NCBI GenBank assembly: GCA_029262115.1 | Contig: JAJCZZ010000010.1 | Span: 1 to 64,000 of the forward strand | Length of the DNA: 64,000 nucleotides | Source of the DNA: Gemmatimonadota bacterium | GTDB lineage: Bacteria > Gemmatimonadota > Gemmatimonadetes > Longimicrobiales > Gaopeijiaceae | Reading direction: 5' to 3' | In this document: positions 9,083-31,805 of the stretch, piece after piece | How the letters are laid out: every line of letters starts with the position of its first letter | How positions within the stretch are numbered: the stretch's first letter is position 1 | Notes under the pieces: generated by a model | Databases searched by the model: none | What the model saw: only the letters and a program-made list of their open reading frames with translations | What the model was told of the DNA's origin: nothing | Position numbers and translations under genes: made by a program

Positions 9083-9089
9083 CGTCCGT

Positions 9090-10436: not shown

Positions 10437-12922
10437 GACGACTTCTTCTTCCCAGCCGTCCGCCCACCGCGGCCCTTCCCCTTCCGGGCGGCGGCTTTCG
10501 CAAGTAGCTCCACGGCCTCGTCCAGCTCCACGTCCAACGGATCGGTTCCCTTCGGGACGTTGGCGTTCACCGTTCCATCGGTCACGTACGGGCCGTACCG
10601 ACCCGAAAGCACGACGACGTCCTTGCCGCTCCTGGGGTGGGCGCCAAGCTCCTTCAGCGCCGCGCGTTTCCCGGCCTTCTTGTCCGCAATGAGCTTCAAG
10701 GCTTCGTCGAGTTCGACGGTCCAGAGCTGTTCCGGTCCGGCCAGGCTGGCGAAGGTCTTCTCCAGCCGGACGTAGGGACCGTATCGACCGAGACCTGCCT
10801 CCACGACCTTCCCGGACTCAGGGTCCGTTCCGACCGGACGCGGCAGAGACAGCAATTTGACCGCATACGAGAGGTCGATGTCGGACGGCTCCTTCCCCTT
10901 TGGAAGACTGGAGCGCTTCGGTTTCTCGTCTTCCGACTCCGGCTCGAGCTCCACATACGGCCCGTACGGTCCGACTTTGAGTTTGACCGCCCGGCCATGC
11001 TCGGGGTGCATCCCCAGCTCCTCGCCCTCCGGAGCGGGACCATCGAGAGACCGGGTGTTCTTGCACTCCGGGTACCCCGAGCAGCCCAGGAACCGCCCGA
11101 AGCGATTCCATTTGACGAGCATCGGGCGACCGCACTTCTCGCACTCCTCGCCCTCTGCCCGGAGGATCTCGAGGATGATGTCGTCGGAGACGGCCGCCCC
11201 TTCCTCGAGACGCGCCTTGAAGCGGGGGTAGAAGTCACCCAGCACCGCTCGCCACCCCACCTCGCCCTCCTCGACCCGGTCGAGTTCTCCCTCCATCCGG
11301 CTGGTGAAGTCGACGTCGAAGATGTTCGGGAAGATGCGCACCAGCAGCTTCACCACGACCTCGCCGAGGTCCGTCGGATGGAACCGCTTCTGTTCCAGAT
11401 CGACGTACCCACGGTCGGTGATCGTGCTCAGGATCGCGGCATAGGTCGAAGGGCGCCCGATGCCGAGTCGCTCCAGGTCCTTCACCAGGCTGGCTTCCGA
11501 GAAGCGCGGGGGCGGCTGCGTGAAGTGCTGGCGCGGCTCGATTGACTCGAGGTCGCTTTCGTCGCCCTCCTCCATGGCGGGGAGGGGTTCGAGGTCGTCG
11601 AGTCGCTTGTGCTCGCCTGCCTCGACCGCCTCCAGGTACAGGCGTGTGAAGCCCTGGAACTTGACCACGGATCCCGTGGCACGAAAAAGGTAGGACCGTC
11701 CGGAGGCGCCCGGCAGATCGAAGTCCAGCGTGGTCGTGTCGTAGATCGCAGGCGACATCTGGCTCGCGACGAAGCGAAGCCAGATGACCTCGTAGAGGCG
11801 CGCTTGATCGGACTCGAGGTAGCGCGCGGCCTCGGACGGGTGGAGGGTGGCGTCGGTGGGCCGGATGGCTTCGTGGGCCTCCTGGGCGCCCTTGGACTTC
11901 TTCCCGCCCCACAGGCGGGGAGCCTCGGGCACGTACGCGTCGCCGAACTCCCCGGTGATCCATTCCCGGGCCTGTCCCACGGCCACGGGCGATACGCGTG
12001 TCGAGTCGGTCCGCATGTACGTGATGAGTCCGACGGTCCCCCTCTTTCCCACTTCCTGTCCCTCGTACAGCCGCTGTGCCACCGACATCGTCCGGCGGGC
12101 CGAGAAGCCGAGACGCTTGGCGGCCTCCTGCTGCAGGGTCGAGGTCGTGAAGGGCGCCGCCGGGTTCTTCCGCCGCTCACGCCGCTTCAGGTCGGTCACG
12201 CGGAACGGCACGTCCTTCACCTCAGACAGGACGGCCTGCGCTGCCTCTTCGTCACCCAGTGTGAAGGCCTTCCCGCCGATCTTGTGCAGCCGTGCGTCGA
12301 ACTTCTGTCCGTCACGCTGGAGGTGCGCCGTGATCGACCAGTACTCCTCCTCAATGAAGGCGCGGACCTCGTCTTCCCGCTCGCAGATGAGCCGGAGCGC
12401 AACGGTCTGAACGCGCCCTGCGGACAGGCCCGGCCGGATCGGCTTCCACAGGAGCGGGCTGACCTGGTAGCCAACCAGTCGGTCGAGGATCCGACGCGCC
12501 TGCTGTGCCTCCACCTTCTTCATGTCGATCGGGCCGGGCCGCTTCAGCGCCTCGAGAATCGCGCCCTTCGTGATCTCCCTGAACTCCACCCGCTGGAACC
12601 GGTCGGGATCGTCGGTCGTCTCGAAGCCGAGCTGCTCGGCCACGTGGTAGGCGATGGCCTCACCTTCACGGTCGGGGTCGGTGGCCAGAATCACGTGGTC
12701 CGCTTTCTTGGCCTTCCCCTTCAACTCCGTGATCACCTTGGCCTTGCCTCGGATCGTCACGTACTTCGGCTCGAAGCCGTGCTCCACGTCGACACCCAGC
12801 TCCTTCTTGGGCAGGTCTCGCACGTGCCCGACCGAAGCGGCCACGTCGTACGCACTCCCCAGGTAGCGCCCGATCGTGCGGGCTTTGGCGGGGGATTCGA
12901 CGATAACGAGATTCTTGGCCAT
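10433..12922 (-). CDS. topA: DNA topoisomerase I
   Basis: This 829-residue type IA topoisomerase relaxes negative supercoils. The TOPRIM domain has Glu9 (IVESPAKA) and TDPDREGE (81-88). The nucleophile is Tyr302 in ITYMRTDSTRV. The C-terminal part has one C4 zinc finger (CEKCGRPM...CSGYPEC) followed by three repeats of a YGPYV-type motif, then a Lys/Arg-rich tail that probably binds DNA. The reduced zinc-finger number with GPYV repeats is common outside gammaproteobacteria. The gene starts 6 bp after aroK. Confidence 0.96.
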   Translation of the reverse strand: MAKNLVIVESPAKARTIGRYLGSAYDVAASVGHVRDLPKKELGVDVEHGFEPKYVTIRGKAKVITELKGKAKKADHVILATDPDREGEAIAYHVAEQLGFETTDDPDRFQRVEFREITKGAILEALKRPGPIDMKKVEAQQARRILDRLVGYQVSPLLWKPIRPGLSAGRVQTVALRLICEREDEVRAFIEEEYWSITAHLQRDGQKFDARLHKIGGKAFTLGDEEAAQAVLSEVKDVPFRVTDLKRRERRKNPAAPFTTSTLQQEAAKRLGFSARRTMSVAQRLYEGQEVGKRGTVGLITYMRTDSTRVSPVAVGQAREWITGEFGDAYVPEAPRLWGGKKSKGAQEAHEAIRPTDATLHPSEAARYLESDQARLYEVIWLRFVASQMSPAIYDTTTLDFDLPGASGRSYLFRATGSVVKFQGFTRLYLEAVEAGEHKRLDDLEPLPAMEEGDESDLESIEPRQHFTQPPPRFSEASLVKDLERLGIGRPSTYAAILSTITDRGYVDLEQKRFHPTDLGEVVVKLLVRIFPNIFDVDFTSRMEGELDRVEEGEVGWRAVLGDFYPRFKARLEEGAAVSDDIILEILRAEGEECEKCGRPMLVKWNRFGRFLGCSGYPECKNTRSLDGPAPEGEELGMHPEHGRAVKLKVGPYGPYVELEPESEDEKPKRSSLPKGKEPSDIDLSYAVKLLSLPRPVGTDPESGKVVEAGLGRYGPYVRLEKTFASLAGPEQLWTVELDEALKLIADKKAGKRAALKELGAHPRSGKDVVVLSGRYGPYVTDGTVNANVPKGTDPLDVELDEAVELLAKAAARKGKGRGGRTAGKKKSS

Positions 12923-17668: not shown

Positions 17669-19447
17669 TCAGTTCAGGCCGCGCACGATGTGCGGCGTCA
17701 CGAGGATGATCAGATCACGCTGGACCTGCTGTTCACGCGTCTGTCGGAAGAGGCGCCCGATGAGCGGAAGATTCATCAATAGCGGAATTCCCGAGCGAAC
17801 CTCGGTCCGCTCGCTCTGCACGAGCCCCGCGATCACATGGGTCTCGCCGTCACCGATGAGGACGCGTGTCGTGGCCTCCTGCGTCTGTTTGATGAATCCA
17901 ACGTCCGAGTCGGCCAGATCGGCCGCTGAACGTTCCACGCTGAGCTCCAGCAGGATGTCTCCGTTCGCCGTGACGTGGGGCGTCGCCTCAAGGATGATAC
18001 CCGTCTCCTCGAGAGCCACCTGGGCGGTCGGGAACGTTCCACCCTGACCGCCCCCTGACCCGGCATCGATGGTCCGGACCGGCACGTCGGTACCCACCTT
18101 CAGGCGTGCGGTCTGGTTGTCGAGAACCGTCGTCTGAGGCTCGGCCTGGATGTCACTCAGGTTCACGGACGACAGAGCGTCGATGAACGAGATGAGCTGA
18201 TGGCGTCCGATGACCAGGGACGTGAGCAGCGACAGGGTGGGGCTCGCGACGCGCGAGTTCGCGTTTCCGAGGGCCGCGACGGAGTTCCCACCGAGGAGAA
18301 CGAGGGCCTCGCCCTGAGCGATCTCCTCATCGTCGTCGATGAAGCCGTTGCCGTTGCTGTCGAACGCGCCGGACGACAGTTCGTTGAGCTGGTTGCCTCG
18401 CGAATCCTTCAACTCGTACGTCACGCCAAGCTCGTTCAGATCCGTGCGGTTCACGAAGATGATCTTGGCGCGGATGTTCACCTGAGGCGTGCGCACGTCA
18501 AGGTCCACCAGAAGTGCACGAACTGCGTCCTGCACCCGCTGGATGTCCGACACGATCAGCGTGTTGGTGCCCTGCCCGCTCGTGACGCTGCCGCGCTCCG
18601 AGAGGAGCGGCTGGATGGCCGTCTGCAGCTCGGAGGCCGTCCCGTAGTTGATGCGGTACGCCACCGTGCGGATCGGCTCGACCGCCTCACGGTCGTTCAG
18701 GTCACCGATGTTGTCGACCACGATGATGCCGTAGTCGTCCTCTTCCGCCACGAGCCCGTGCCGGGACAGGATGGCACGCATGGCCACGTCCCACGGCTGG
18801 TCCCGGATGTCCGCGGTCACCAGACCTGTGACGTTCGAGCCCGGTACGATCGAGCGCCCGGAAAACGCCGCGAACGAGAGCAACACGTCCTGGATGGGGG
18901 TGTTCGTGAACTGGATCGAAATCCGACGCGCCTGGCTCTGTTGCTCCTGGCCGGGCCGCGCGCCGCGCCTCGGGAAGTCGGGGCTGGTGCGCTCGCCCGC
19001 GATCGCCCTGGGCGGGCTCCGTGGGGCCGCCACGGTCCGCTCCGACGTACCCACCGGCGTGCCGGACGTCCATGCCTCGAAGGCACCCTCCGGATTGGCC
19101 ATGGTGATGCGGAGCCCGTTCGGCTCCGGCGCCACGCTGTAGACCGTCTTCTCGCTGAGCACCAGGACGACCCGTACGACGTCGGCTGAATACTGGCTCG
19201 TACGGATCGAGCGGATGCCACCACGGTTCAGATCAGCGAACTCGTCTCGCGGCAACTCGTGCCGCGATCCCATGAGGTCGACCACCAAGCGATGGGGTCC
19301 CTCCATGAGAAAGTCGCGGTAATCCACGGAACCCTCGACGGCAATGAAGACGCTCGTCTGCGACGCCATGGAGGAGACGGACAGCTCCGTCACGGGTCCT
19401 CCGAGAGCCACGACCGCGCCCGTGAGTAGGGCATAGATCGGAATCAT
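17669..19447 (-). CDS. pilQ: Type IV pilus secretin PilQ
   Basis: This 592-residue protein forms the outer-membrane channel through which the pilus passes. An N-terminal signal-like segment is followed by an AMIN domain (about 20-110, peptidoglycan binding). Next is a secretin/TonB short N-terminal domain (ISIQFTNTPIQDVLLSFAAFSGRSI). The C-terminal secretin domain ends with the typical GIPLLMNLPLIGRLFRQ and DLIILVTPHIV. It is on the short side for PilQ, with one AMIN and few N-domains. ATG overlaps the upstream pilP-like stop by 4 bp. Confidence 0.94.
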   Translation of the reverse strand: MIPIYALLTGAVVALGGPVTELSVSSMASQTSVFIAVEGSVDYRDFLMEGPHRLVVDLMGSRHELPRDEFADLNRGGIRSIRTSQYSADVVRVVLVLSEKTVYSVAPEPNGLRITMANPEGAFEAWTSGTPVGTSERTVAAPRSPPRAIAGERTSPDFPRRGARPGQEQQSQARRISIQFTNTPIQDVLLSFAAFSGRSIVPGSNVTGLVTADIRDQPWDVAMRAILSRHGLVAEEDDYGIIVVDNIGDLNDREAVEPIRTVAYRINYGTASELQTAIQPLLSERGSVTSGQGTNTLIVSDIQRVQDAVRALLVDLDVRTPQVNIRAKIIFVNRTDLNELGVTYELKDSRGNQLNELSSGAFDSNGNGFIDDDEEIAQGEALVLLGGNSVAALGNANSRVASPTLSLLTSLVIGRHQLISFIDALSSVNLSDIQAEPQTTVLDNQTARLKVGTDVPVRTIDAGSGGGQGGTFPTAQVALEETGIILEATPHVTANGDILLELSVERSAADLADSDVGFIKQTQEATTRVLIGDGETHVIAGLVQSERTEVRSGIPLLMNLPLIGRLFRQTREQQVQRDLIILVTPHIVRGLN

Positions 19448-19938
19448 TCGGGGCCTCCAGTGCGGCGGGTCTGCAACTGCATGATTCTCTGCTCCGTAAG
19501 TCCGAATTCAGCGACTTCCACAACGATCCGATCGCTGAGGATTTCGACGATCCGGATGTTTCCGATGGATTGCCCTTGCTTCAGGTACCACGCGTTCCCA
19601 TCCGGAGAGACGGTCACGCTCGACCCATCCTCCGACGTCGTCACGGTGCTGGTACCGAGGATCGCCACCCGCGACCCCGGTTCCTCGGAAAAGATGATGC
19701 CCATGAGGCGAACCTGTTCGATGCGCGGGCCGCCCTCACCCGATGCGGCCAACGCCTGGAACGGATTGCGCCGTGGGAAGGACGGATAGGCGAAGACCTC
19801 CCGCTCGAACACGAGTTCGGTCGGCGGCATCGGCGGACCGGCGGGCGGGTCCTGAGCCCGTACGACCGACGGCGCCGCGGCCAGGCCGAAGCCGAGCACG
19901 AGATAGGGCAGATAGTGGTGCAACCGTCGACGACTCAC
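19444..19938 (-). CDS. pilP: PilP-like pilus assembly protein
   Basis: This 164-residue exported protein has a signal sequence (residues ~8-28, ending VVRAQ) and the RRNPFQAL motif that recalls the DPF/NPF region of PilP. A small beta domain follows (VRLMGIIFSEEPGSRVAILG, then WYLKQGQSIGNIRIVEI), as in the HR domain of PilP/GspC-type proteins. PilP links the inner-membrane PilNO complex to PilQ in the periplasm. Sequence similarity is modest by eye, so position between pilO and pilQ carries much of the call. GTG start overlaps the pilO stop. Confidence 0.82.
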   Translation of the reverse strand: MSRRRLHHYLPYLVLGFGLAAAPSVVRAQDPPAGPPMPPTELVFEREVFAYPSFPRRNPFQALAASGEGGPRIEQVRLMGIIFSEEPGSRVAILGTSTVTTSEDGSSVTVSPDGNAWYLKQGQSIGNIRIVEILSDRIVVEVAEFGLTEQRIMQLQTRRTGGPE

Positions 19939-20546
19939 GGGGTGCCTCCTTCGCCAGGCGCCGGGGGGGGCAGCGCATCGGGCAGCACGAACGTTTCGAT
20001 TCGAAAGGTCGCCAACACCGGACTCTCCATCTCCGGAAACACCTCGGGACGATCGAACGGAGTGAGGTCGAGCTCCACCGTCGTCACGATCCGGGGCAGG
20101 CTCGCCACCTCGGTCAGGAAGCGCGCCACATCGTGGTACTCACCGACCACGGCCATCTCGTACGAACTCTTGTTGTAGAACGCTCCCTGCTCGACCGGCT
20201 CGGGATTGAACCGGTTCTGTTCCACACCGGATCTGCGCGCGCGCTCGGCCACGTCATCGAGAAGTCCAGGAACCTCTTCGCTCGCGGGGATCAGCCGCTC
20301 GAGCGCCGCCACATGTCTCTCGTAGAGAGCCGTGGTCTCGTCCATGTTTCCGCCACCGCGAGCCGCGATCACCTGTGCACGACGGTTCTGCGTCTCGATC
20401 GTCTCGAGTCGCGCCTGGCTGGCCACGACCTCTTCACGTTGCCCGCTGTACCAGAACGCGTGAAACGGATAGAGCGCGAGGAGGAGGACCGCCCCAATGA
20501 GCATGGCGTTCCTCTGCTTCGGATCGTCCGGGATGATCTTGGCCAT
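19935..20546 (-). CDS. pilO: Type IV pilus inner-membrane protein PilO
   Basis: This 203-residue protein has a short cytoplasmic N-terminus, one membrane segment (about 12-30), a coiled-coil (about 30-90, containing LERLIPASEEVPGLLDDVAERA) and a ferredoxin-like periplasmic domain (MAVVGEYHDVARFLTEVASLPRIV). This is the standard PilO layout. PilO pairs with PilN to form the alignment complex between PilM and PilP/PilQ. It lies 3 bp after pilN. Confidence 0.9.
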   Translation of the reverse strand: MAKIIPDDPKQRNAMLIGAVLLLALYPFHAFWYSGQREEVVASQARLETIETQNRRAQVIAARGGGNMDETTALYERHVAALERLIPASEEVPGLLDDVAERARRSGVEQNRFNPEPVEQGAFYNKSSYEMAVVGEYHDVARFLTEVASLPRIVTTVELDLTPFDRPEVFPEMESPVLATFRIETFVLPDALPPPAPGEGGTP

Positions 20547-20549
20547 CGG

Positions 20550-21245
20550 TCAGCCCTCCACCGTGTCGGGCACCGCCATCTGCGTCGACACGTTGTCGAG
20601 CAGAGGTACGGTCTCGAGAAGCTCGATCGGCGGCGCGACGTAGGTCACGGTCAAGTCGAACTGGTAAACGACATCCTGCGCGTTGCCACCGTCCAAAGTA
20701 GCTTGCTCGTTCCGCTCCAGATTCACGCCACGGAAGAAGGACGACGCTTCGAGTTGCCGCATGAAGTTGGTGATGGCGAACGTGCTCCCCGCTTGGCCCG
20801 AGATCCGGACCTGCAGGGGATCGGCCCCCAGGTAGGTCATCTCGCGCAACCACATGAAGTCGGGGAGCGCGCGGGCCACCTCGTCCAGCACATGAGGCCA
20901 GACGTAGCGGTCCGCGTCGATCTCCTGAATGATGGCCACCCGCTGGGCGATCGAATCACGCCGAGCGGTGAGTTGAGTGGTGCGCTCGATGATATCCGCG
21001 AACCGTAGGGAGTCCTGGATTGCGCTGTCCAAGGCGACCTGGACCTCTTCGCGGTCACCGGACACGCCCATGAAGAGCCACGCCATCAGTCCCAGGGACA
21101 GGATCCCGGCCGCTACCGCACCCAGGATGTAAGGATCGGTCGGCAGGCCGCCGCCGCCCCCACCCCCGAAGCTGGGCCGGGACAGCGAGAAACCGCGCCC
21201 CGAGGAGCGCTTCTTCCCGCCTGGTAGCAGATTGACTTCAATCAC
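20550..21245 (-). CDS. pilN: Type IV pilus inner-membrane protein PilN
   Basis: The 231-residue protein begins with EVNLLPGGKK, the conserved N-terminal INLLP-type peptide that binds PilM. An unusual Gly-run linker (GGGGGGG) precedes a single membrane segment (about 41-60), a coiled coil and a periplasmic domain with QVRISGQAGSTFAITNFMRQLE. Start is GTG at 21245, fixed by the position of the PilM-binding peptide. A 24-bp spacer separates it from pilM. Confidence 0.92.
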   Translation of the reverse strand: MIEVNLLPGGKKRSSGRGFSLSRPSFGGGGGGGLPTDPYILGAVAAGILSLGLMAWLFMGVSGDREEVQVALDSAIQDSLRFADIIERTTQLTARRDSIAQRVAIIQEIDADRYVWPHVLDEVARALPDFMWLREMTYLGADPLQVRISGQAGSTFAITNFMRQLEASSFFRGVNLERNEQATLDGGNAQDVVYQFDLTVTYVAPPIELLETVPLLDNVSTQMAVPDTVEG

Positions 21246-21269: not shown

Positions 21270-22304
21270 TCAATGGCGCAATGCCAGCCCGAGGGGGAGA
21301 AGCAGCATCGGCGCTGCCTCGTCGATGGAGACCTCGTTCGACGCCTCCGTCTGAACCGGCACCCGCTCGAATGGATTGACCTGGGCGGTCTCCACATTCA
21401 TACGACCGCCGAGGGCCCGTACCATGCCCGGAATCCGGGCCCCGCCCCCACTCAGGAAGATCTTCCCGAGCGTCTCGCCATCGTCTCGCGTCATGAGGAA
21501 GGCGCTCGCGCGCTCGATCCCGACGGCCACTTCATCGGCCGAAGCGGACACGAAGCGCTCCAGATCGTCGACCGTATCCCGGGCCTGCACCACATCCTCG
21601 GCCTGCTCCGCCGTGAGGCCACGCTCCCTTTGGAGATCCTCTCGCAGTTTCCGCGAACCGAAGGGGATATCCCGGGTCAGGATCGGGACTCCATCCTCGA
21701 GGATGTTCACGTTGGTGGTTTCGTGGCCCACGTTGACCAGCGCCACGATCCCCTCCTGGTCGTCCGGATAGTTGAAGCCGAAGGCGTTGTGAAGCGCAAA
21801 GGCATCGACGTCGATGATCGTGGGGTTGACCCCGGCGTCCTGGAGCAGCCCCACCTTGTTGTCTACCAGCTCACGCTTCGCCGCCACGAGCAGGACCTCC
21901 ATCTGGAGCCCTTCGTCGTGGGGGTTCAGGATCTGGAAGTCCAATTCCACACTCTTGATATCGAACGGCACGTGTTGCTCGGCCTCCCAGCGGATGACCT
22001 CGCGCGCGTCGGACTCCTTCATCCGATCCATCTCGATCTTCTTGATGATGACGTCGTGGCCGCCCACGGCCGTCACGACGTCCGCTCCCTTCATTCCCAG
22101 ATCCTGAAAAAGGCCTCGGACGGTGTCGGAGACGAGCCCGTAGTCCATGATCTCCCCTTCCACGATCGCGTCGGGAAGGAGAGGCCGCATGGCCACTCGG
22201 GATACCTCCGGTTGGTCGCCGGAGTGATCCACCTCGACGAGCTTCACGAACCCGGACCCGATGTCCAGGCCGATCGAACTCCGACTTCGGCCAAACAGAC
22301 CCAT
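21270..22304 (-). CDS. pilM: Type IV pilus actin-like ATPase PilM
   Basis: This 344-residue cytoplasmic protein has the actin/FtsA-like nucleotide fold: GLDIGSGFVKLVEV at the N-terminus, VALVNVGHETTNVNILEDG in the middle and KIFLSGGGARIPGMVRAL near the C-terminus. PilM binds the N-terminal peptide of PilN and links the pilus machine to the cytoplasm. It is the first gene of pilMNOPQ, with an AT-rich promoter region just upstream. Confidence 0.95.
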   Translation of the reverse strand: MGLFGRSRSSIGLDIGSGFVKLVEVDHSGDQPEVSRVAMRPLLPDAIVEGEIMDYGLVSDTVRGLFQDLGMKGADVVTAVGGHDVIIKKIEMDRMKESDAREVIRWEAEQHVPFDIKSVELDFQILNPHDEGLQMEVLLVAAKRELVDNKVGLLQDAGVNPTIIDVDAFALHNAFGFNYPDDQEGIVALVNVGHETTNVNILEDGVPILTRDIPFGSRKLREDLQRERGLTAEQAEDVVQARDTVDDLERFVSASADEVAVGIERASAFLMTRDDGETLGKIFLSGGGARIPGMVRALGGRMNVETAQVNPFERVPVQTEASNEVSIDEAAPMLLLPLGLALRH

Positions 22305-22538: not shown

Positions 22539-23720
22539 TCAGTTTGCCACGTTTGTCAGGTCGATCCAACTGCGCATCGCGAGCGGGCGGATCTTGGTCA
22601 GCGAACTGTTATTGAGGAGAGCTCGTTCGATCGCACAGCTCGAGTAGGTGATCACGGCGTTCCCGAGCACGACGTTCTCGTCGAGGGACACGTTCGCCGC
22701 GACCACGCCACCCCAGAAGTGACCACCCGATCCGTTCGTCCAGAGCTGCCCCTTGATGAAGACGGGGCCGTAGAACTCGAAGCCTCCGTTCACTTTCACG
22801 TCATCCTCGATCATCAGGATTCCCTGCCCGTACCCTGAATTCAGGATGAACTGGCTCGAGTTGTTGATGTAGATGATCGGGAAGTATAAGAAACACGGGG
22901 ATAGGGGATCGAGGGGGTCGCCCCAGTTCGTGTCGATCGACGTGTCGCAGGTGCCGCCGCTCACCGAAGGACCTATGGCACCACTCGGCGAACCGTTGAT
23001 CTTGATGTCCGCGATCGCGATCATGTCGTCCCAGGTCAGGTCACCGAACGTGGTGAGAGACTCCGTCGTGATCGTCGTGTCCTCATCGAAGATCGGCGTG
23101 CCGGTCATGTTCCCTTCGATCTTATTCCGGTTGCCGTTCCAGTTGATGTTGCTCGTATCGTTGATGAGGAGGCCTGGCTTGTCCGTGAGCGTGGATGGGT
23201 CGCAGTACGAGCCCCAGTTCGCGAGCCCCCCGTTGCTTCCATCGGGGATCTCGTCGATCCCGTGGATCTCCGAGTTACCTCCGTACTTGAGGCTCCCCTG
23301 TGTGGTCAGGGCCGCCGGCGGCGAGATGTTGGCCGTATTGAGGCGTGTGATCAGCCCCACGCGGCGCGTCGCCCCGGCCCACATGGCGCCCCCCTGCGTG
23401 ATCTCGGCCTCGGAGTCGAGGTAGAAAAGCCGGGCGGTAAGGCGTGTCGCGGATACTCTGGTGATTCCCACGGTGACGGTGTCGACCAGGGTTGTCGTGT
23501 CCCAGGTCGCGAGGCTTGTCAGCGACGACGTCTCGTTCACCAACACGTTGTTGATGGCCGATTGGGCGAGGTTCCGGGCCATGGCGGCATGCTCGGTCGC
23601 CACCCCGATCCTCACCTCCTGGCGAGCCATGTAGAAGCCACCCGTCACGAGAACACCGACGATGACGAGGCCACCGATCGCGGCGGGCAGGGCAAAACCT
23701 CTCGTGCGTGGACTGCTCAT
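22539..23720 (-). CDS. PilX-like pilus assembly protein, copy 1
   Basis: This 393-residue protein starts with RGFALPAAIGGLVIVGVLVT, a PilX-type N-terminal membrane segment lacking the Glu5 of classical prepilins. The C-terminal ~100 residues hold a repetitive beta segment (GQGILMIEDDVKVNGGFEF, FIKGQLW, WGGVVAANV) that looks like stacked beta-helix rungs and is shared with the second PilX-like copy. The start is ATG 23720; the open frame continues upstream but adds no plausible leader. It is the last gene of minor-pilin set 1. PilX-type proteins help initiate pilus assembly. Confidence 0.82.
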   Translation of the reverse strand: MSSPRTRGFALPAAIGGLVIVGVLVTGGFYMARQEVRIGVATEHAAMARNLAQSAINNVLVNETSSLTSLATWDTTTLVDTVTVGITRVSATRLTARLFYLDSEAEITQGGAMWAGATRRVGLITRLNTANISPPAALTTQGSLKYGGNSEIHGIDEIPDGSNGGLANWGSYCDPSTLTDKPGLLINDTSNINWNGNRNKIEGNMTGTPIFDEDTTITTESLTTFGDLTWDDMIAIADIKINGSPSGAIGPSVSGGTCDTSIDTNWGDPLDPLSPCFLYFPIIYINNSSQFILNSGYGQGILMIEDDVKVNGGFEFYGPVFIKGQLWTNGSGGHFWGGVVAANVSLDENVVLGNAVITYSSCAIERALLNNSSLTKIRPLAMRSWIDLTNVAN

Positions 23721-23742
23721 GTTCGTATCCTCAGCGTGGCGT

Positions 23743-24540
23743 TCAATTGCGTGTATAGATGCGGGCGGTGATCGAGTCGGAGACGGGCTGATTCCCGGCC
23801 CCAAGGACGCCGGAAGCGGTACGGATGGTCACCAGAATCTGCCGAACATCCGCGGCGACCGTGGTGGTGGCCCCGTTCCCGTCGAGGTAGCTGAACGCCA
23901 CCCCGTTCGACGACTTCACCGGGCCCACCACCGGAACGGCTGAGCCGGTCGTGCGCCGCCCGAGGTACGACTCTCCGTTGATCTGGTAGAGGCCGTAGGT
24001 ATACCGCTCGAAGCTCCGGATCGAAGCTCCGACAAGGACGGTGTCATTCGTGAACAGCGTGGACTGGCCCGTGAAGGTCAGTTCCTGGGCACTCTGGGAA
24101 GCGCAAAACTTGGTCGTATCGACCGCCGTGACCTTCGTGCTCAGCCACACGTCGTCGCCGGCCATCGTCACGTTGTTGTCCGCAAAGACGAAGGTCGAAT
24201 CATTGGTCGTGAACCAGTCTCCGACCCGAATCACCGTCAGCTTGGGCTGCGCCGTGAAATCGACGGCGCAGGTTACACCGAACTTTCGCATCGTCCGGAT
24301 CGTCAGGGAGTCGGCCCCCATGGCCAGCAGGTCCCCGCCTTGCGCGCTGATCTCTCTGAGCTCGGAGCTCAGGAGATCGAGCGCGGCGCGCGTGGTCTGC
24401 TGTCCCTGGATCTTGGCGTTCTGGGCCGTATACGTCCGCTGATTCGTGATGAGGATCTGCAGACTGGCCATCACGACGACCGTGCCGAGAACGACGACGA
24501 CCAACAGTTCAACGAGTGTGAACCCCCGTCGGCCGCTCAT
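23743..24540 (-). CDS. PilW-like minor pilin, copy 1
   Basis: This 265-residue protein has a type IV prepilin leader MSGRRG cut before FTLVELLVVVVLG, with Glu5 present. The long pilin helix is followed by a large Asp/Thr-rich globular domain containing two Cys (CAVDF and FCASQ), possibly a disulfide. Size and position next to PilV- and FimT-like genes fit PilW. It overlaps the PilV-like gene by 4 bp. Confidence 0.85.
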   Translation of the reverse strand: MSGRRGFTLVELLVVVVLGTVVVMASLQILITNQRTYTAQNAKIQGQQTTRAALDLLSSELREISAQGGDLLAMGADSLTIRTMRKFGVTCAVDFTAQPKLTVIRVGDWFTTNDSTFVFADNNVTMAGDDVWLSTKVTAVDTTKFCASQSAQELTFTGQSTLFTNDTVLVGASIRSFERYTYGLYQINGESYLGRRTTGSAVPVVGPVKSSNGVAFSYLDGNGATTTVAADVRQILVTIRTASGVLGAGNQPVSDSITARIYTRN

Positions 24541-24962
24541 GGGCGCAACAATCTGTACTCGAAGGTGTCCGGTACGGCCGGAGCGAGCATCGGGAACGGG
24601 TTCCCGGCGGTCGTGTGAAGCCCGGGCCCCATGGTGACGATCTGAACGACCTTCGACTGGGCTCCGGTTCCGGCCGACCAGGAAACGTTGAACACCCCGA
24701 TCGAATCGGATCCGGTCGTCACCGAGTCGAAGGCCATGGCCTGGACGCGCTCAATCACCGACTGAAGGGCGGCCGACCTCTCCGACATGACATCGGCCAG
24801 TGTGACCTGCCGCACGATATACGCCGTCGTACCCCCGAGACCCAGTACGCCCACCGCGAGAATGATGATCGCGACGACGACCTCCACCAGGGAGAAACCC
24901 GCAGCGGACCGCTGGGGGCCGTCCCGGGTCGAATCGAACCGTGCACCCGACGGAGGCATCAT
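24537..24962 (-). CDS. PilV-like minor pilin, copy 1
   Basis: This 141-residue prepilin has a 22-residue leader ending in RSAAG, then FSLVEVVVAIIILAVGVLGLGG with Glu5. The AVGVLGLGG pattern is typical of PilV/GspI-like minor pilins. I start it at ATG 24962, which shares one base with the stop of the FimT-like gene (TGATG). Translation is therefore probably coupled. Confidence 0.85.
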   Translation of the reverse strand: MMPPSGARFDSTRDGPQRSAAGFSLVEVVVAIIILAVGVLGLGGTTAYIVRQVTLADVMSERSAALQSVIERVQAMAFDSVTTGSDSIGVFNVSWSAGTGAQSKVVQIVTMGPGLHTTAGNPFPMLAPAVPDTFEYRLLRP

Positions 24963-25414
24963 CAGTACACCAACTGTCCGAGGGGAAGGATCTCTACGGA
25001 CGTCGAGTCCGTTCCCGCCCAGAACTCCACCCGTGTCGCCGAGGTGAAGTTGTTGCAGTTCTCGTCCGCGAAGCCCCGCGAGTTCATACAGACCCGGACC
25101 GTTACAGGCGTCGCGCGGATGTCGACGCCGAACTCGCCCGAATACCGGATCATCTCCAGCCGCGTCCCGGATTCGGTCTCCAACACGAGGCTGTCCCCGG
25201 TCGGGTAGGCCGTCAACCGAACGTTTTCTCCCTGCTCGATGGCCTGGGCCCGAGCCCGAGCGTGTAGCGCCACATAGGTATTCCGAGCCCCACTGACGGC
25301 GAAACGACCGCGCACACTCCCGTAGCTGGTCAGGGCCATGCTCGTCAGGACGCTCCCAATGAGAATCACCACGACCAACTCGATGATGGTAAATCCAGTG
25401 CGTCCACGAACCAT
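24962..25414 (-). CDS. FimT/GspH-like minor pilin, copy 1
   Basis: This 150-residue prepilin has leader MVRGRTG then FTIIELVVVILIGSVLTSMAL. The GspH/FimT pattern follows: ARNTYVALHARARAQAIEQG, then a beta-rich tail with two Cys. It is the first gene of set 1 and is followed in order by PilV-, PilW- and PilX-like genes. Pseudopilins of this type prime pilus assembly. The 146-bp region upstream carries an inverted repeat. Confidence 0.86.
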   Translation of the reverse strand: MVRGRTGFTIIELVVVILIGSVLTSMALTSYGSVRGRFAVSGARNTYVALHARARAQAIEQGENVRLTAYPTGDSLVLETESGTRLEMIRYSGEFGVDIRATPVTVRVCMNSRGFADENCNNFTSATRVEFWAGTDSTSVEILPLGQLVY

Positions 25415-25531
25415 GAGGGTTCCGTAGGGGAGTGCGCGAAGTAGTCACGGTTCTTGAAAGACCAAGTTCCGTGCCAGCGAAAACGCCAATATTCACGCGA
25501 CATATGGCGCCCGTAAAGGACGTCGTTCCGC

Positions 25532-25557
25532 ACTTTTTTCCGGAAGGCGAAAAAAGT
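25532..25557. repeat. A/T inverted repeat between the two minor-pilin sets
   Basis: ACTTTTTTC (25532-25540) and GAAAAAAGT (25549-25557) are perfect 9-bp inverted repeats with an 8-nt spacer, 3 bp past the stop of the second PilX-like gene. The T-run precedes rather than follows the stem, so it is not a classic terminator in either direction. It may be a regulatory palindrome at the junction of the sets. Confidence 0.45.
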
Positions 25558-25560
25558 ACC

Positions 25561-26616
25561 TCACCGGATCGGGCCCAGTCGCCCCCACCCCGGGACCGGA
25601 ATCGAGGGAAAGCGACTCCCCGCGAATCGCAGCGCTCGAACCGCTCGGCACGCGGAGCCGATCACCTGGCCGTCCTCGACGAGCGCTCCCCCAGACGCTC
25701 GTACGTAACCCTCGAAGATAGCGCCTTCGGTGACGACGAGCCGACCGGAGAGCAGGACGACGCCCGCGAAGTGGGCGCCCCCCGAGAGTTCAAGGTCGCC
25801 GTCCACCACAAGGAGGCCCTGCCCGCTCCCCGCATCCAGACGCAGATCGCCTTGACGCATCAGCGCGACGAATCGACCGCCGCACGGAGAGGCGGGCGGA
25901 CCGGCAGGGTCACCCCAGTTGGTGAGTCCCGGAACACAAACGCCGCCCCGTCGGACCGACGCGGGCGTGACGCGTGGGCTTTCAAACGACTCCAGGAACG
26001 CGCCAAGGGACGGTCCGTCCATCAGACCGAGGCCCGGGAGACCCGTCGGCGACCCGACCGATCGGTCGAGCGGAGCCGGGATGGAGCCGAGCGGCGGGCA
26101 AACGGAAGCCGTGACCCCGGACGGACGCGCGTTCCACCCCGTGGCGTCGATCTTCTCCATGCCGGTGACCGACGCATCCGAACCCACCTCCACCACCCCA
26201 CCGGCGGCTTCCACTCGCGCGACGGGGTCGAGACGCCACATCAGGCCCGCGGACCGGACCGAAACGCGCCGGCGCCTGTCCCAGCCGACGACCTGAGCGA
26301 GCCGGAGTTCCGAGTCCAGGGGACGTACCTCGGCCTCGAAGCCACCGCCGGGGTGGTCGCTGCCCCAGGACCACCCGCCGTCCCCGTCGACCGGACCGGT
26401 GTCCCCCGCAGGCAGTGCCCGCGCAGCCGTTTCGATCAGGCCCGACTCCGCCGCCACGCGGGCCTCCAGCAACGAGAACGAGGCATGGCTGGACGCGACT
26501 TCGAACCGCGCCAGGAGAAGCGCCCCGTGTGCGGCGAGGGCCATCGCGACCATGGCCATCACCACCCCGGCCAGGACGAAACCGCCCCGGAGCCGCCGGG
26601 GCCGCGCGCGGATCAT
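25561..26616 (-). CDS. PilX-like pilus assembly protein, copy 2
   Basis: This 351-residue protein has an Arg-rich start and a membrane helix (GGFVLAGVVMAMVAMALAAHG). Its C-terminal part repeats the copy-1 pattern GQGLLVVDGDLELSGGAHF, GVVLLSGRLVV. It is much richer in Arg and Gly than copy 1 and has almost no Lys. The ATG at 26616 overlaps the PilW-like stop by 4 bp and is preferred over a GTG at 26637. It is the last gene of minor-pilin set 2. Confidence 0.8.
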   Translation of the reverse strand: MIRARPRRLRGGFVLAGVVMAMVAMALAAHGALLLARFEVASSHASFSLLEARVAAESGLIETAARALPAGDTGPVDGDGGWSWGSDHPGGGFEAEVRPLDSELRLAQVVGWDRRRRVSVRSAGLMWRLDPVARVEAAGGVVEVGSDASVTGMEKIDATGWNARPSGVTASVCPPLGSIPAPLDRSVGSPTGLPGLGLMDGPSLGAFLESFESPRVTPASVRRGGVCVPGLTNWGDPAGPPASPCGGRFVALMRQGDLRLDAGSGQGLLVVDGDLELSGGAHFAGVVLLSGRLVVTEGAIFEGYVRASGGALVEDGQVIGSACRAVRALRFAGSRFPSIPVPGWGRLGPIR

Positions 26617-27326
26617 CGGCCCATCCAGACGAGCCACGGCACCGTGTCGCCCATGAGGACCACGGAAAGCGCGGCCGCCGTAAAGCGGGCGGTCGGACTC
26701 ACCACCTCGGGCGTGAGCGGTTGTCTGCCCGAGCGACCCCGCCTGTACCTTACGGCCCCGCCGGTCAGATGGTAGCTGCCCCGCTCGAAGTATCGACCCA
26801 CCCGGAAGTCGACCGGAGCGGGCTCCAGTCGCCAGCGGTAGACGCGCCCGCCGCTACCGGGGCATGGTTCGGTCGACGGATTACTCGCCATGAGGGCGGC
26901 GACCGCGACGCCTCCCCCCGCCGACAGCCAGACCACCGAGTCCTTGGCAGGATCGGGCTCCCGGAGGCCGACCGCTCGCACCAGAACCGAGGCGCCGCCG
27001 GGCGCGGCGGGACCGCACGACGTGGCAATGCCGCGAGCGACCCGAAGCGCGGCCGAATCGGACCCGATGCTGAAGGCGCCGAGGGAGTCGGTCCACGCTC
27101 TCCACTCGGATCCCATGACCAGCCGCGCCAGGCGGGCCGTAGCGAGCTGCTCCGAGATCGTGCTCATCCGGACGACGGCGCGGTGGTGCGCAAGGAATGC
27201 GCTCACCGTGCCCTGGGTGAGGAGAGCCGACACGACGGTTACGACGATCAACTCGATCAGCGTGATCCCGTGCACGGCGACTCTCGCCGGCACGAGGACA
27301 CCGCCGACTTCGTCCACCCCCTTCAT
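26613..27326 (-). CDS. PilW-like minor pilin, copy 2
   Basis: This 237-residue prepilin has a 20-residue leader ending VAVHG, then ITLIELIVVTVVSALLTQGTV with Glu5 and Ile at +1 instead of Phe. The globular part has Cys in TSCGPAAPG and EPCPGSGG. The position between PilV- and PilX-like genes mirrors set 1. Its start at 27326 overlaps the upstream stop. Confidence 0.8.
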   Translation of the reverse strand: MKGVDEVGGVLVPARVAVHGITLIELIVVTVVSALLTQGTVSAFLAHHRAVVRMSTISEQLATARLARLVMGSEWRAWTDSLGAFSIGSDSAALRVARGIATSCGPAAPGGASVLVRAVGLREPDPAKDSVVWLSAGGGVAVAALMASNPSTEPCPGSGGRVYRWRLEPAPVDFRVGRYFERGSYHLTGGAVRYRRGRSGRQPLTPEVVSPTARFTAAALSVVLMGDTVPWLVWMGR

Positions 27327-27655
27327 TGCCCGCCGACCCGCACGACAGCCTCCAGACGTAGGGTGTCCGTGCCCACCACGGTCTCCAGAGTCATCATTCC
27401 CCCGCCGGCCACCCTCCACTCCACGACGGTCCGACCGACCAGGGCGCGCCCGGCGCCTACCGCCCGCGCCACCGAGAGCGAGTCGTGCACCCATGCCAGT
27501 GCGGCGACGGAACGCTCTCGCTCGACCGCACCCCGCAGGGTTCGAGAAGCCAGCAGGAGCGTCGAACCTGTCGCGAGGACCGCGACCTGGAGCACGACCA
27601 GCGCGACCACCACCTCCACCAGGGTGAATCCGCGGACAGCGTCGCGGTGCCTCAT
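27323..27655 (-). CDS. PilV-like minor pilin, copy 2
   Basis: This 110-residue prepilin has leader MRHRDAVRG and FTLVEVVVALVVLQVAVLATG, similar to PilV/GspI pseudopilins. It is shorter than copy 1. The ATG at 27655 overlaps the stop of the FimT-like gene by 4 bp. The unusually long open frame upstream is a GC-skew artefact and overlaps the neighbour. Confidence 0.8.
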   Translation of the reverse strand: MRHRDAVRGFTLVEVVVALVVLQVAVLATGSTLLLASRTLRGAVERERSVAALAWVHDSLSVARAVGAGRALVGRTVVEWRVAGGGMMTLETVVGTDTLRLEAVVRVGGQ

Positions 27656-28080
27656 CGGCGGCGCACCCGTCCGTACCCGGAGATGACCAACGCCGTCTCC
27701 GCATTGCCGCGGCGAAACACGAGCGTCTCGTTGGCGATCCGTCCAAGGCCCAAAGCGTCGTACTCGAGCGTGGTGCGACTCCGTCCCCGCGACAGCGCGA
27801 CCACCGTCGTGAAGTCCCGCTCCACCGCAACCTCGCGAAGGACCTGGCCGCCAACCTCCGACCATGCACGCCAGGGCCGGTCCGTGAGATGGACCCGCGC
27901 GCCGCCCCGCCCCAGCCCGGCAACCCGAGCCTCGGCGATGAGGCCGGCTACGGCTTCGCGGGCAGCAATGGCGCCTGCCCGCTCGGACCATCGCCGAGCC
28001 GAAGGCGCTACGCCCGCGGCGACGAACGACAGCAGGGCGACCACCGTCGCCAGCTCCATCAGTGTATATCCGGTGCGCAT
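27652..28080 (-). CDS. FimT/GspH-like minor pilin, copy 2
   Basis: This 142-residue prepilin has leader MRTG followed by YTLMELATVVALLSFVAAGV; +1 is Tyr and Glu5 is kept. The pattern AREAVAGLIAEARVAGLGRGG matches GspH/FimT. ATG 28080 gives the usual short leader; a TTG two codons upstream is possible. It heads minor-pilin set 2. No clear Shine-Dalgarno sequence is visible. Confidence 0.78.
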   Translation of the reverse strand: MRTGYTLMELATVVALLSFVAAGVAPSARRWSERAGAIAAREAVAGLIAEARVAGLGRGGARVHLTDRPWRAWSEVGGQVLREVAVERDFTTVVALSRGRSRTTLEYDALGLGRIANETLVFRRGNAETALVISGYGRVRRR

Positions 28081-28151: not shown

Positions 28152-29510
28152 CTACTCGACTCCGTACTCCTGGATCTTGTACCGAAGGGCTCTTGGTGAG
28201 AGCTCGAGGAGTTCCGCTGCGTGCGTCTTGTTCCCCCCGGTACGGTCGAGGGCCAGTTCGATGAGATGCTTCTCGAGCCGGGCGCCGTGCCGTTTCACGG
28301 AAAGGTCATCGCCATCGACGGTCATGGAGGGACCCTCGGGACCGGGCCGCCGCACGGACTCGGGAAGATCGTCCAATTCGATCTGCGGTCCCTCCGTCAG
28401 GACGAGCGCGCGTTCCAGGACGTTCTCGAGCTCCCTGATGTTCCCGGGCCAGGAATACGCGAGCAGTGCCTCCATGGCCTCGGGAGAGATGCCATCCGTC
28501 TCGATCTGCATACGCTCCGCATGGCGCTTGAGCAGATGTCGACAGAGCTCCGGGATCTCCTCCCGCCGGGTCCGCAGCTGTGGGAGATGGATGGTGACGA
28601 CCGCCAAGCGATAGAAGAGGTCCGTGCGGAAGTCCCCCGCCTCGACCGCGCCTTCCAGATCGAGGTTCGTGGCGGATATGATCCGGACGTCGACGCCGCG
28701 GGTTGCCGTCGAGCCCACCCGACGGATCTCGCCTTCTTGAAGGCTCCGGAGAAGCTTCACTTGCAGGCTGCCCTGGAGTTCGCCCACCTCGTCCAGAAAC
28801 AGCGTCCCACCGTCGGCCGCCTCGAAGAGGCCCGGCTTGTCACGATCCGCTCCGGTGAAGGCCCCTTTCACATGTCCGAAGAACTCGGACTCGAGAAGGT
28901 GCTCAGGCATCCCCCCGCAGTTCACAGCAATGAATGCGCGCTTTGCTCTCGGGCTCTCGCGGTGCAGCAAGCGCGCAATCAGCTCCTTACCGGTGCCGCT
29001 CGCTCCCGTGATGAGGACCGGGGAGTTGTGACGGGCCACCTTCTCGGCGACCTCGACCGCTTTGCGCATCTGAGGAGAAGCGACGACGATCTGGCCGAAC
29101 CGGCGGTCCTGTCGTACTTCGTGTCGGAGTCGGCCCACCTCGCGGCGAAGTTGCTCGCGCTCCTCGGCCTTTCTCACGATGAGGAGCACTTCGTCCGCAC
29201 CGAAGGGCTTCGGGATGTAGTCGTACGCACCGTTCTTCATGGCCTCGACGGCGAGGTCCATTCCGCCGTACGCCGTCATGACGAGGACGAGCGCCTCACC
29301 GCCCGAGGCGCGGTACCGCTCGAGGAAGCCGATTCCGTCGAGGCGTGGCATCCGGACGTCACACAGGATCAGGTCGGGTTCCTCCTCCTTCGCCACCTCC
29401 AACCCCGACACGCCATCCTCCGCGTGGACGACTTCGTATCCCGAGTCCGTGAGGATCAACGTCAGGGACTTCCTGAGCCCCGCGTCGTCATCGATGATGA
29501 GAAGCTTCAC
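28152..29510 (-). CDS. NtrC-family sigma54 response regulator
   Basis: This 452-residue protein has a canonical receiver (phospho-acceptor Asp51 in LILCDVRMP, acidic pocket IIDDDAG), an AAA+ domain with [14 protein letters not shown] and [12 protein letters not shown], and a Fis-type HTH ([20 protein letters not shown]). It should activate sigma54 promoters when phosphorylated by the kinase encoded just upstream, whose stop overlaps its GTG by 4 bp. Targets are probably nearby pilin genes, but no canonical -24/-12 promoter was found. The start is set by the GTGA overlap. Confidence 0.93.
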
Positions 29511-30751
29511 GTGTCGTCCTCGGGGTATCCGGGAAGTCGGATCAAGAAGAGCGCTCCACCCCACTCCGACTCGTCGATGGAGATCCGTCCGCCCATCCCC
29601 TCGACGAGTCGCGCGCAGATCGAGAGCCCGAGGCCGGTGCCCTTCCCCACGTCCTTCGTTGTAAAGAACGGGTCGAACACGTCCTCACGGCTCCCTACGG
29701 GGATTCCTGGCCCGTTGTCGCTCACCTCGATGACGACCACGGAACGTGCGTTGAACAGCGGATCCACCCCATGGCCGCCTTCGTCTCTCGAAACCCTGCG
29801 CCGGTGCATGTAGTTGATCCCGGGGGGATCTTCCGCTCGCTTGACCGGCATACGCGCCACCTCGGCGGCCGTCGTCGACAGGCGAACCGCGATGCGGGGG
29901 TTCGGGTCGTTCTCCATGGCCTCCAGCGCGTTCAGCAGGAGGTTCACGAGGACCTGCTCGAGCCGATGGGGCTCCATGACGACCCTGGGTATCGCGGCCG
30001 GTACCACCCATTCGGCGTGCACGCCGTCGAGCTTGCCCTGGCTTTCCAGCAGTTCCCGTACTCGCGCGATGACCTCCCCCGTTCCCGCGGGGCCCATGGA
30101 CTCCCTCTTGGGGCGGGCGTAGTCGAGAAGGCCCCGCACGATCCGGTCGATCCTTCGTGCCTCGTCCCGGATGGAGTCCAGGATCTCGGTGTCGGACCCG
30201 GCCTGACTCGCGCGGGCCCGCGCTACATCCACGTACGCCATGATCGCACCGAGGGGGTTGCCGACCTCGTGGGCGATTCCGGCCGCCAACGTGCCGACGG
30301 AAGCCAACCGCGCGGTGTGCACGATCTGATCGCGGGCCTCCACCAACTCCATGTTCGTGTGTTCCAGCGACTCCACGTTCTCGGCCAGGAGCATTTGATC
30401 GGCAATGAGGTGATCCGCCATCGCGTTGACGTTGGCCCGCACGTCCTGGAGTTCGAGGATATCGAAGGCTCGCACGCGATGCGACAGGTCTCCCTCGGCA
30501 ATGCGGCGGACGTCGGTGGACAGGCGATCGAGGGGCCGAACGAGTGACCGGCGAATCAGAGCACCACCGAACACGAACAGAACGAGGAGGTCCGCCACGA
30601 CCAACGTCCCCACGAACAGGACGGCCTCAGCCGGAGACTCCAGGATCGGGAGGAGCACCGACAGCCCGGCGGTAGCCAGGAGGACCGCTCCGGCGAAGAG
30701 CACGCCAAAGGCGACGAGGAGCTCTCGGCGAAGGGGGGTAGGTGGGCGCAT
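29507..30751 (-). CDS. Sensor histidine kinase (partner of the NtrC-type regulator)
   Basis: This 414-residue membrane kinase has two N-terminal membrane helices (about 10-35 and 43-66) with almost no periplasmic loop, a HAMP-like linker, and a HisKA domain with phospho-His161 in [15 protein letters not shown]. The ATPase domain has [18 protein letters not shown] and [10 protein letters not shown] boxes. The tiny sensor loop suggests sensing within the membrane or by a partner. ATG 30751 is used; a GTG at 30757 is possible. It lies between pilA copy 1 and the regulator. Confidence 0.92.
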
Positions 30752-30815
30752 ACGCACTGCGGAGGGATCGGGGCCGGCAACCCGGAAGGTGGGCCGCGGC
30801 GGGCCGGCCTAGCAA

Positions 30816-30840: not shown

Positions 30841-31227
30841 TCAGGGTGTGCACTGGACCGTGCTCAGCGTGGTGGCGGGCGAGACCGCGCTGGCGTCTCC
30901 GTGGAAGACCGCGCACGGCTCAGCCGGGAGCGCCGAGTGCGTCGCGACCGCCGACCACCCGGTCCCGTTGCCGGACACGATCGTGACGTTGACACCTTCG
31001 GACGGGTCGAAGCCGAGCGCGGCGGGGTCGGTCGAGTAGGAGTAGTTGTCGTTGTAGTAGACGTCCTGGACGTTCGCGAGATTCCGCAGGTCGGCCCGGA
31101 GCGATGCGACGTACGCCTTCTCCTGGACGGCCCGGAACTTCGGAACCGCGATCGAGGCCAGGATGCCGATGATGACCACGACAATCAGCAATTCGATCAG
31201 GGTGAAGCCGTCTCTCGGGGTCCGCAT
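30841..31227 (-). CDS. pilA: Type IV major pilin, copy 1
   Basis: This 128-residue prepilin has a short leader MRTPRDG and the classical helix FTLIELLIVVVIIGILASIAVPKF with Glu5. The globular domain contains YYNDNYSYSTDPAALGF and ends with a Cys-bounded loop (EPCAVFHG to VQCTP). A strong Shine-Dalgarno GAGGAG lies just upstream of ATG 31227, consistent with high expression. It is a paralogue of the adjacent copy: both share GVNVTI and the C-terminal Cys pair. The longer open frame upstream lacks a ribosome site. Confidence 0.95.
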   Translation of the reverse strand: MRTPRDGFTLIELLIVVVIIGILASIAVPKFRAVQEKAYVASLRADLRNLANVQDVYYNDNYSYSTDPAALGFDPSEGVNVTIVSGNGTGWSAVATHSALPAEPCAVFHGDASAVSPATTLSTVQCTP

Positions 31228-31403: not shown

Positions 31404-31805
31404 TTAGCTGGTGCACGCCATCTCGCCGGGAGACGACGGCGTTGCCGTGCCCACGGACACAGCGGCGTGGGCGCCGTAGTAAATGGCACAGCCCTCGGTC
31501 GCAGCGAGCGCCGCGTGGGTCGCGGTGGCGGCCCAACCATCGGTGGTGGATGTGGAGGCGATGGTCACGTTGACGCCCTGAGAGTTCGTGAACGCGAGGT
31601 CGGTCGCGGCGGTGGAATAGCTGTACGCGTCGGAGTAGTAGATCTCCTGCTGGCTCGCCAGGTTCTTGAGATCCGACTTCATGGCGGCAAAGTACGCCTT
31701 CTCCCGCGTGGCGGAGAACTTCGGAATGGCGATGGCCGCCAGGATTCCGATGATCACGACCACGATGAGGAGCTCGATCAGGGTAAAGCCCTTTCTGTCC
31801 CGCAT
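31404..31805 (-). CDS. pilA: Type IV major pilin, copy 2
   Basis: This 133-residue prepilin has leader MRDRKG and FTLIELLIVVVIIGILAAIAIPKF. GGAG lies 8 bases upstream of ATG 31805. The globular part is rich in Ser/Thr (for example TIASTSTTDGWAATATH) and ends with a Cys-bounded loop (EGCAIYYG to MACTS), similar to copy 1. The Ser/Thr richness makes it a plausible substrate for the adjacent glycosyltransferase-like genes. It is the first of the two pilin genes and has a 227-bp upstream region with several candidate regulatory repeats. Confidence 0.95.
   Translation of the reverse strand: MRDRKGFTLIELLIVVVIIGILAAIAIPKFSATREKAYFAAMKSDLKNLASQQEIYYSDAYSYSTAATDLAFTNSQGVNVTIASTSTTDGWAATATHAALAATEGCAIYYGAHAAVSVGTATPSSPGEMACTS

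Follow-up and report, generated by a model that had tools for sequence, protein, structure and literature searches.

Two anciently duplicated minor-pilin cassettes in the pil locus of a Gemmatimonadota bacterium as candidate alternative tips of one type IVa pilus

Introduction

The pil locus of a Gemmatimonadota bacterium of the family Gaopeijiaceae (GenBank assembly GCA_029262115.1, hereafter G000; 5.45 Mb, 95.7% complete) is located on contig JAJCZZ010000010.1, of which positions 1 to 64,000 were analysed and are referred to as the window. Two intact minor-pilin cassettes are encountered on its minus strand between pilR and pilM, each encoding FimT, PilV, PilW and PilX, which confirms the two complete sets of identical order and direction reported in an initial annotation of the window. 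Gemmatimonadota are widely distributed in soil and water, although few species of the phylum have been cultured, and the arrangement bears on the open question of how many jobs can be performed by one type IV pilus. This paper describes the ancestry, distribution, sequence signatures and putative regulation of both cassettes, and evaluates their possible roles as alternative pilus tips.

Results

Organization and composition of the two cassettes

Set 2 (28080-25561) comes first in the direction of transcription and set 1 (25414-22539) second, with a gap of 146 nucleotides (nt) between them. The eight genes are (a slash marks the prepilin cleavage site):

27652..28080, minus strand: fimT2 (set 2), prepilin G/YTLMEL, Arg-rich, C-terminus ...SGYGRVRRR (GRxR tail)
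27323..27655, minus strand: pilV2 (set 2), prepilin G/FTLVEV, start overlapping the fimT2 stop
26613..27326, minus strand: pilW2 (set 2), prepilin G/ITLIEL
25561..26616, minus strand: pilX2 (set 2), prepilin-like G/FVLAG without Glu5, C-terminal beta-solenoid-like region, C..NWGDP..C
24962..25414, minus strand: fimT1 (set 1), prepilin G/FTIIEL, C-terminus ...LPLGQLVY, conserved Cys pair
24537..24962, minus strand: pilV1 (set 1), prepilin G/FSLVEV
23743..24540, minus strand: pilW1 (set 1), prepilin G/FTLVEL
22539..23720, minus strand: pilX1 (set 1), prepilin-like G/FALPA without Glu5, C-terminal beta-solenoid-like region, C..NWGDP..C

Both sets display type III prepilin leaders with a Gly-hydrophobic cleavage site and the T-V-W-X order, and Glu5 is present in FimT, PilV and PilW; FimT2 gave a weak N_methyl match and scored above the cut-off of TIGR02532. 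The initial annotation described set 1 as having ordinary residue use with Glu5 and Phe at +1, of which the Phe holds throughout the set, but PilX1 (FALPA), like PilX2 (FVLAG), is devoid of Glu5, and FimT1 matches the set 2 proteins in being Lys-free. Similarly, the Ile+1 and Tyr+1 prepilins attributed to set 2 were found in PilW2 and FimT2, respectively, while PilV2 and PilX2 have Phe. The Arg-rich and nearly Lys-free make-up of set 2 was borne out, with 9-16% Arg and 0-0.8% Lys in the proteins of the window. Relatives, of which about 60 were sampled through pilM-anchored loci and which include families f1 to f4, show the same contrast: Lys and Asn average 0.3% and 0.6% over 20 set 2 cassettes, and 1.2% and 3.7% over the 29 cassettes of set 1. 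Moreover, the globular parts of set 2 proteins have a higher net charge than their set 1 counterparts for FimT (18/22 genomes), PilW (14/14) and PilX (15/17). The GC content at third codon positions (GC3) is approximately 0.79-0.84 in set 1 and set 2 alike, and it is GC1 and GC2 that are raised in set 2. Since GC3 is equal in both sets, the contrast resides at the protein level rather than in codon bias or foreign DNA.

Paralogy and age of the duplication

BLASTP comparison of the eight window proteins detected PilX1-PilX2 (3.7e-13) and, weakly, PilW1-PilW2 (2.7e-6), and no other clear pair. Profile-profile comparison, for which profiles were built from relatives and restricted to the globular parts by removal of the shared N-terminal helix, linked FimT1 to FimT2 (98.7%, 1.9e-15), PilW1 to PilW2 (98.5%, 2.3e-14) and PilX1 to PilX2 (100%, 1.1e-52), and no cross-type pair of globular parts matched. 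Because these matches are type-specific, FimT, PilW and PilX of the two sets are, by sequence, one-to-one paralogues; PilV is borderline, as PilV1-PilV2 similarity was weak even with profiles (E-value 0.022). Unrelated origins of the sets, the outcome that would contradict a duplication, were thus not found.

PilX proteins were called by cleavage-site and length rules; a profile drifted onto all prepilins via the shared N-terminal helix. Cassettes in tandem loci were labelled by position and those in single-set genomes by the PilX tree, so that the PilW, FimT and PilV trees serve as a test of congruence. Both PilX copies occur in tandem between pilR and pilM in 18 loci, belonging to families f1/f2 plus one locus without family label (L034); in four further genomes (G002, G014, G017, G057) set 2 is followed by set 1 on contigs that end before pilM. 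The PilX tree parts all upstream copies from all downstream copies, and in all four gene trees the same single branch separates set 1 from set 2, with support in the Shimodaira-Hasegawa-like approximate likelihood-ratio test of 100 for PilW, 96 for FimT, 96 for PilX and 73 for PilV. Phylogeny of each pair therefore points to an ancient split. In a wider PilW tree with more outgroups, PilW2 forms one clade (99) within which f1 and f2 are subclades, and PilW1 is broader and less tidy. On the basis of this single PilW2 clade, set 2 is placed in the f1/f2 common ancestor, with vertical inheritance since. Horizontal acquisition as the cause of the set 2 composition was considered and rejected in view of the shared GC3 and this inheritance in f1/f2 subclades.

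Three f2 loci (L072, L077 and L078 in G045, G049 and G055) contain a divergent pilM-adjacent cassette with a PilX of 342-353 amino acids (aa). In the PilW tree this cassette falls outside the main set 1 clade, and cassette replacement is a possible origin.

Distribution and autonomy of the cassettes

Set 2 is present in every f1/f2 pil locus that has enough sequence, and when one of the sets is lost it is set 2 that is retained. Set 1 is missing from four near-complete genomes of one or two contigs each (G005, G022, G025, G026), which retain set 2. In four others, G004, G007 (two copies), G011 and G020, set 1 has been relocated as an intact cassette with set 2 remaining beside pilM. Families f3 and f4 possess a single, set 1-like set, and genomes with either set alone retain the same pil locus. 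The relocated set 1, the set-2-only genomes and the single-set families together suggest that each cassette seems able to serve a pilus by itself. At the level of comparative sequence analysis, the sets are shown to be paralogous, their four genes to be inherited together as a unit, and either set to survive alone in some lineages. In this comparison set 1 appears as the mobile and variable set, which would fit an adhesive tip.

These patterns also bear on the alternative that all eight minor pilins assemble into one mixed tip or priming complex. Conservation of the tandem arrangement in 18 loci would agree with such a complex, but the set-2-only genomes, the single-set families f3 and f4, the intact relocation of set 1, and the separate promoter element preceding set 1 (see below) make it improbable. 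Even less probable is that set 2 is under weak constraint and in decay, with an Arg/Ala/Gly-rich make-up that results from GC drift. The raised GC1 and GC2 at equal GC3 are in line with decay, as is the lower mean identity of PilX2 compared with PilX1 (0.27 versus 0.33). However, FimT2 and PilW2 are better conserved than FimT1 and PilW1 (0.34 versus 0.25, and 0.34 versus 0.31), the reading frames are open throughout, and set 2 is both universal in the adequately sequenced f1/f2 loci and the set that is kept. The same identities led to rejection of a generally faster evolution of set 2, which holds for PilX alone and is reversed in FimT and PilW.

Additional minor-pilin genes were observed outside the pil locus. 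An off-locus set 1 in G053 (contig C37, L124) contains two tandem, similar PilX1 copies, which suggests that the tip protein was duplicated later on its own. A third FimT-PilV-PilW-PilX set (L108; G000:C108, 4679-8632, minus strand), distant from the pil locus and with a PilX-like protein of 584 aa, adjoins genes for a LytTR response regulator and a LytS-type histidine kinase (8858-11240, plus strand), an architecture shared with AlgR/FimS. In Pseudomonas, AlgR/FimS control minor pilins.

A single pilus machine

Read along the minus strand, the locus comprises two pilA-like genes, pilS, pilR, set 2, set 1 and pilM, N, O, P and Q, in this order, with pilMNOPQ directly downstream of both cassettes:

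31404..31805, minus strand: pilA-like major pilin copy 2, with a sigma-54-like TGGAACGCCCTCTGCA upstream at 31871-31856
30841..31227, minus strand: pilA-like major pilin copy 1
29507..30757, minus strand: pilS, HAMP histidine kinase
28152..29564, minus strand: pilR, receiver, sigma-54 activator AAA+ and Fis-type helix-turn-helix domains
21270..22304, minus strand: pilM, PilM_2 5.8e-65 (Pfam)
17669..21245, minus strand: pilN, pilO, pilP and pilQ, with pilQ assigned by Pfam and N, O and P named by position

Pfam confirmed pilM and pilQ, and PilB/PilT-type ATPases are encoded on the same contig (pair at G000:C10:97047-99284). The PilQ of the window is the sole secretin found in the 95.7% complete assembly. 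The PilY1 model (PF05567) had no match in the genome, nor an above-cut-off match in control genomes, so that the sensitivity of this search is unproven. Further PilB/GspE-type ATPases are encoded at G000:C92:35793-36993 (L130) and G000:C50:47538-48605, and the former has a short N_methyl match (47-aa frame) immediately downstream.

The lone secretin and the lack of a detectable PilY1 speak in favour of alternative tips on a single type IVa pilus, as opposed to a separate secretion pseudopilus. The possibility that one of the sets forms a type II secretion-like pseudopilus sharing PilQ can draw on the match of FimT1 to the GspH model (TIGR01708, 8.8e-8, below cut-off), on the absence of Glu5 from PilX, as in GspK, and on the several PilB/GspE-type ATPases. 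Nevertheless, it has little probability given the single secretin, the position of both sets between pilSR and pilMNOPQ, the same pil locus in genomes with either set alone, and the lack of a major pseudopilin in either set, none of whose proteins reached the cut-off of the GspG model (TIGR01710, NCBIfam). Accordingly, of the two options raised in the initial annotation, two distinct machines, such as a pilus and a secretion pseudopilus, are disfavoured by the missing second secretin and by pilMNOPQ directly behind the sets, while duplicate sets building alternative tips gain support from the one-to-one paralogy, the congruent trees, the genomes with one set and the single secretin.

The FimT tail and the PilX solenoid

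In Legionella, FimT binds DNA by means of arginines that belong to a C-terminal GRxR motif, and Arg to Gln changes weaken this binding (PMC8897410); FimT3 of Xylella, which has GRxR, likewise binds DNA and its paralogues do not (PMC9956873). The C-terminus of the window FimT2, GRVRRR, contains this motif, and few FimT2 columns are conserved as strongly as the G and R of the tail. Within f1/f2, a GRx(1-2)[RK] tail is present in 29/30 set 2 FimT proteins and 1/29 of set 1, and strict GRxR in 22/30 and 0/29, respectively; 25/29 set 1 proteins have G-Q at this position. As 10 of 11 single-set FimT proteins of f3/f4 also have the GRx(1-2)[RK] tail, the simplest history would be an ancestral Arg tail that was lost once, in set 1. 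The preserved FimT2 tail and the more basic globular parts of FimT2, PilW2 and PilX2 allow set 2 to be read as a putative DNA-receptor tip. In support of a role of the pilus in DNA uptake, ComEC is encoded in 45/47 genomes with pilM versus 3/12 without, and the pilus may serve this purpose.

PilX1 and PilX2 share a C..NWGDP..C motif. AlphaFold models of both, built from four-sequence alignments, show a long helix at the N-terminus and a series of short strands towards the C-terminus. In structural comparison, PilX1 was matched best by Thermus ComZ (6qvi; Z-score 5.8, root-mean-square deviation (rmsd) 4.8, 185 residues). For PilX2, matches were obtained with ice-binding beta-solenoids (Z up to 9.0), with bactofilin (Z 8.9, rmsd 1.8, 72 residues) and again with ComZ (Z 5.8). 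ComZ itself, a GspK-like pilin proposed to act as a DNA receptor at the pilus tip, has a beta-solenoid similar to that of these ice-binding proteins (PMC6561018).

Several observations count against a DNA-receptor function of set 2. DNA binding by FimT2 is predicted by analogy of its tail, and a PDB sequence search with the FimT1 and FimT2 profiles recovered the shared pilin N-terminal helix only, linking FimT2 to no solved FimT structure outside that helix. Both FimT copies of f3 loci carry the GRx(x)R tail, which may thus be a structural feature that ends the FimT/GspH fold. PilV2 is no more basic than PilV1, and the PilX models score low in the predicted local distance difference test (means of 46 and 43) and match ComZ at no more than Z 5.8. 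The ComEC correlation may reflect only genome reduction and does not discriminate set 1 from set 2, and no account of natural transformation in Gemmatimonadota turned up in the literature search. Alternative tips of which set 2 is no DNA receptor, with both sets dedicated to different surfaces or conditions and an arginine tail that is only structural, are less probable but plausible. The paralogy and autonomy of the sets apply equally to this explanation, for which precedent exists in the three minor-pilin/PilY1 clusters of Myxococcus xanthus (PMC7541494), and GRx(x)R-like tails in both f3 copies favour it. However, a tail that set 1 has lost and that is nearly invariant in set 2 demands an explanation, and three of the four set 2 subunits are more basic.

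The extra FimT-like gene of these f3 loci (e.g., L079, L081 and L083) gives the order T-T-V-W-X, with GR(V/I)xR-type tails in both copies.

A sigma-54-like element upstream of set 1

Two features are located in the region between the sets:

25532..25557, minus strand: inverted repeat ACTTTTTTC...GAAAAAAGT, perfect, AT-rich, just after pilX2
25461..25476, minus strand: sigma-54-like -24/-12 element TGGCACGGAACTTGGT, upstream of set 1

Sigma-54 promoters have the consensus TGGCAC-N5-TTGCW with conserved GG and GC. Regions upstream of fimT in f1/f2 were scored against this consensus, and a score of at least 11 was reached by 13/18 for set 1 and 1/19 for set 2. A relaxed pattern, chosen after inspection of the sequences, matched 14/18 versus 1/19, with a background of 70/3584 (2%). 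An unbiased 7-mer count recovered the same TGGCAYGGA core together with CGGAA/TTCCG palindromes, in which the inter-set region of relatives is rich and which could be a candidate activator site; the inverted repeat ACTTTTTTC/GAAAAAAGT could be an activator site or an attenuator. Set 2 begins approximately 70 nt after pilR and lacks a sigma-54-like element. RpoN is encoded in the genome and PilR carries a sigma-54 activator domain. Control of set 1 by PilR and co-transcription of set 2 with pilSR would be consistent with this layout. The element has a strong, conserved -24 half; its degenerate -12 half (TTGG in the window) speaks against promoter function. The major pilin is usually under control of PilR and sigma-54, and the sigma-54-like element found at pilA in the window was not consistent among relatives. 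Judged from these sequence features, the contrast between the sets likely rests on the DNA-binding-type tail of FimT2 and the sigma-54-like element of set 1.

Discussion

The frame with the best support, and probably the correct one, is that the two cassettes provide alternative tip complexes for one and the same type IVa pilus. Within this frame, the preferred mechanism, to which we assign an even chance, is subfunctionalization into a set 1 tip for adhesion or motility and a set 2 tip for DNA uptake. An ancestral single set would probably have fulfilled both jobs, and after duplication set 1 would have lost the arginine tail (R to Q). Each cassette would provide a complete priming and tip complex for the same machine, with one PilMNO and one PilQ, and PilX, a large GspK/ComZ-like pilin with a putative beta-solenoid, would cap the tip instead of PilY1. 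Set 1 would be expressed from its own sigma-54 promoter under PilR to yield the adhesion/motility tip, and set 2 by read-through from pilSR to yield the DNA-receptor tip. Taken as a whole, the picture of a PilY1-less single machine that swaps four-protein tips, one sigma-54-dependent and adhesive and the other a separately expressed DNA receptor, both capped by ComZ-like PilX and derived from an ancient tandem duplication, is a tentative one. The deep cassette-wise duplication, with one clean difference in the arginine tail and promoter arrangements that differ between the copies, would offer a natural test of tip specialization and, if the proposal is true, the first lead, within the searches made, to a DNA-uptake receptor in Gemmatimonadota.

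Multiple minor-pilin sets are already known from Myxococcus and Xylella. The clusters 1-3 of M. xanthus, some of which were undetected under laboratory conditions, similarly combine several FimU-PilV-PilW-PilX sets with one type IVa pilus machine per genome, and their minor pilins, located at the tip, prime pilus assembly (PMC7541494). Unlike the sets described here, each of these clusters has its own PilY1, which was not found in G000, where the pil locus itself holds both sets in tandem, each with a different FimT tail and promoter arrangement. Xylella fastidiosa also has paralogous minor pilins (pilE/V/W/X sets) and a GRxR-bearing FimT, and divides movement and competence among the paralogues (PMC9956873), but there FimT3 alone is the specialized receptor and the paralogues occupy two genome regions, in contrast to a whole cassette in tandem in another phylum. 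Legionella FimT shares the GRxR arginine tail at the C-terminus of a FimT minor pilin (PMC8897410), although it is encoded by an orphan fimT, whereas FimT2 is the product of the first gene of a cassette and is detectably related to it only by pilin features and the tail. The pilA1-pilA2-pilA3-comZ genes of Thermus thermophilus resemble the cassettes in that a large pseudopilin, into which a beta-solenoid is inserted, adjoins other minor pilins (PMC6561018); PilX1 and PilX2 are shorter, occur in two sets, and are similar to ComZ by low-confidence models only (Z 5.8). What is new in comparison with these systems is the ancient tandem split of a whole cassette, in which one copy cleanly lost the arginine tail and the promoter arrangement differs.

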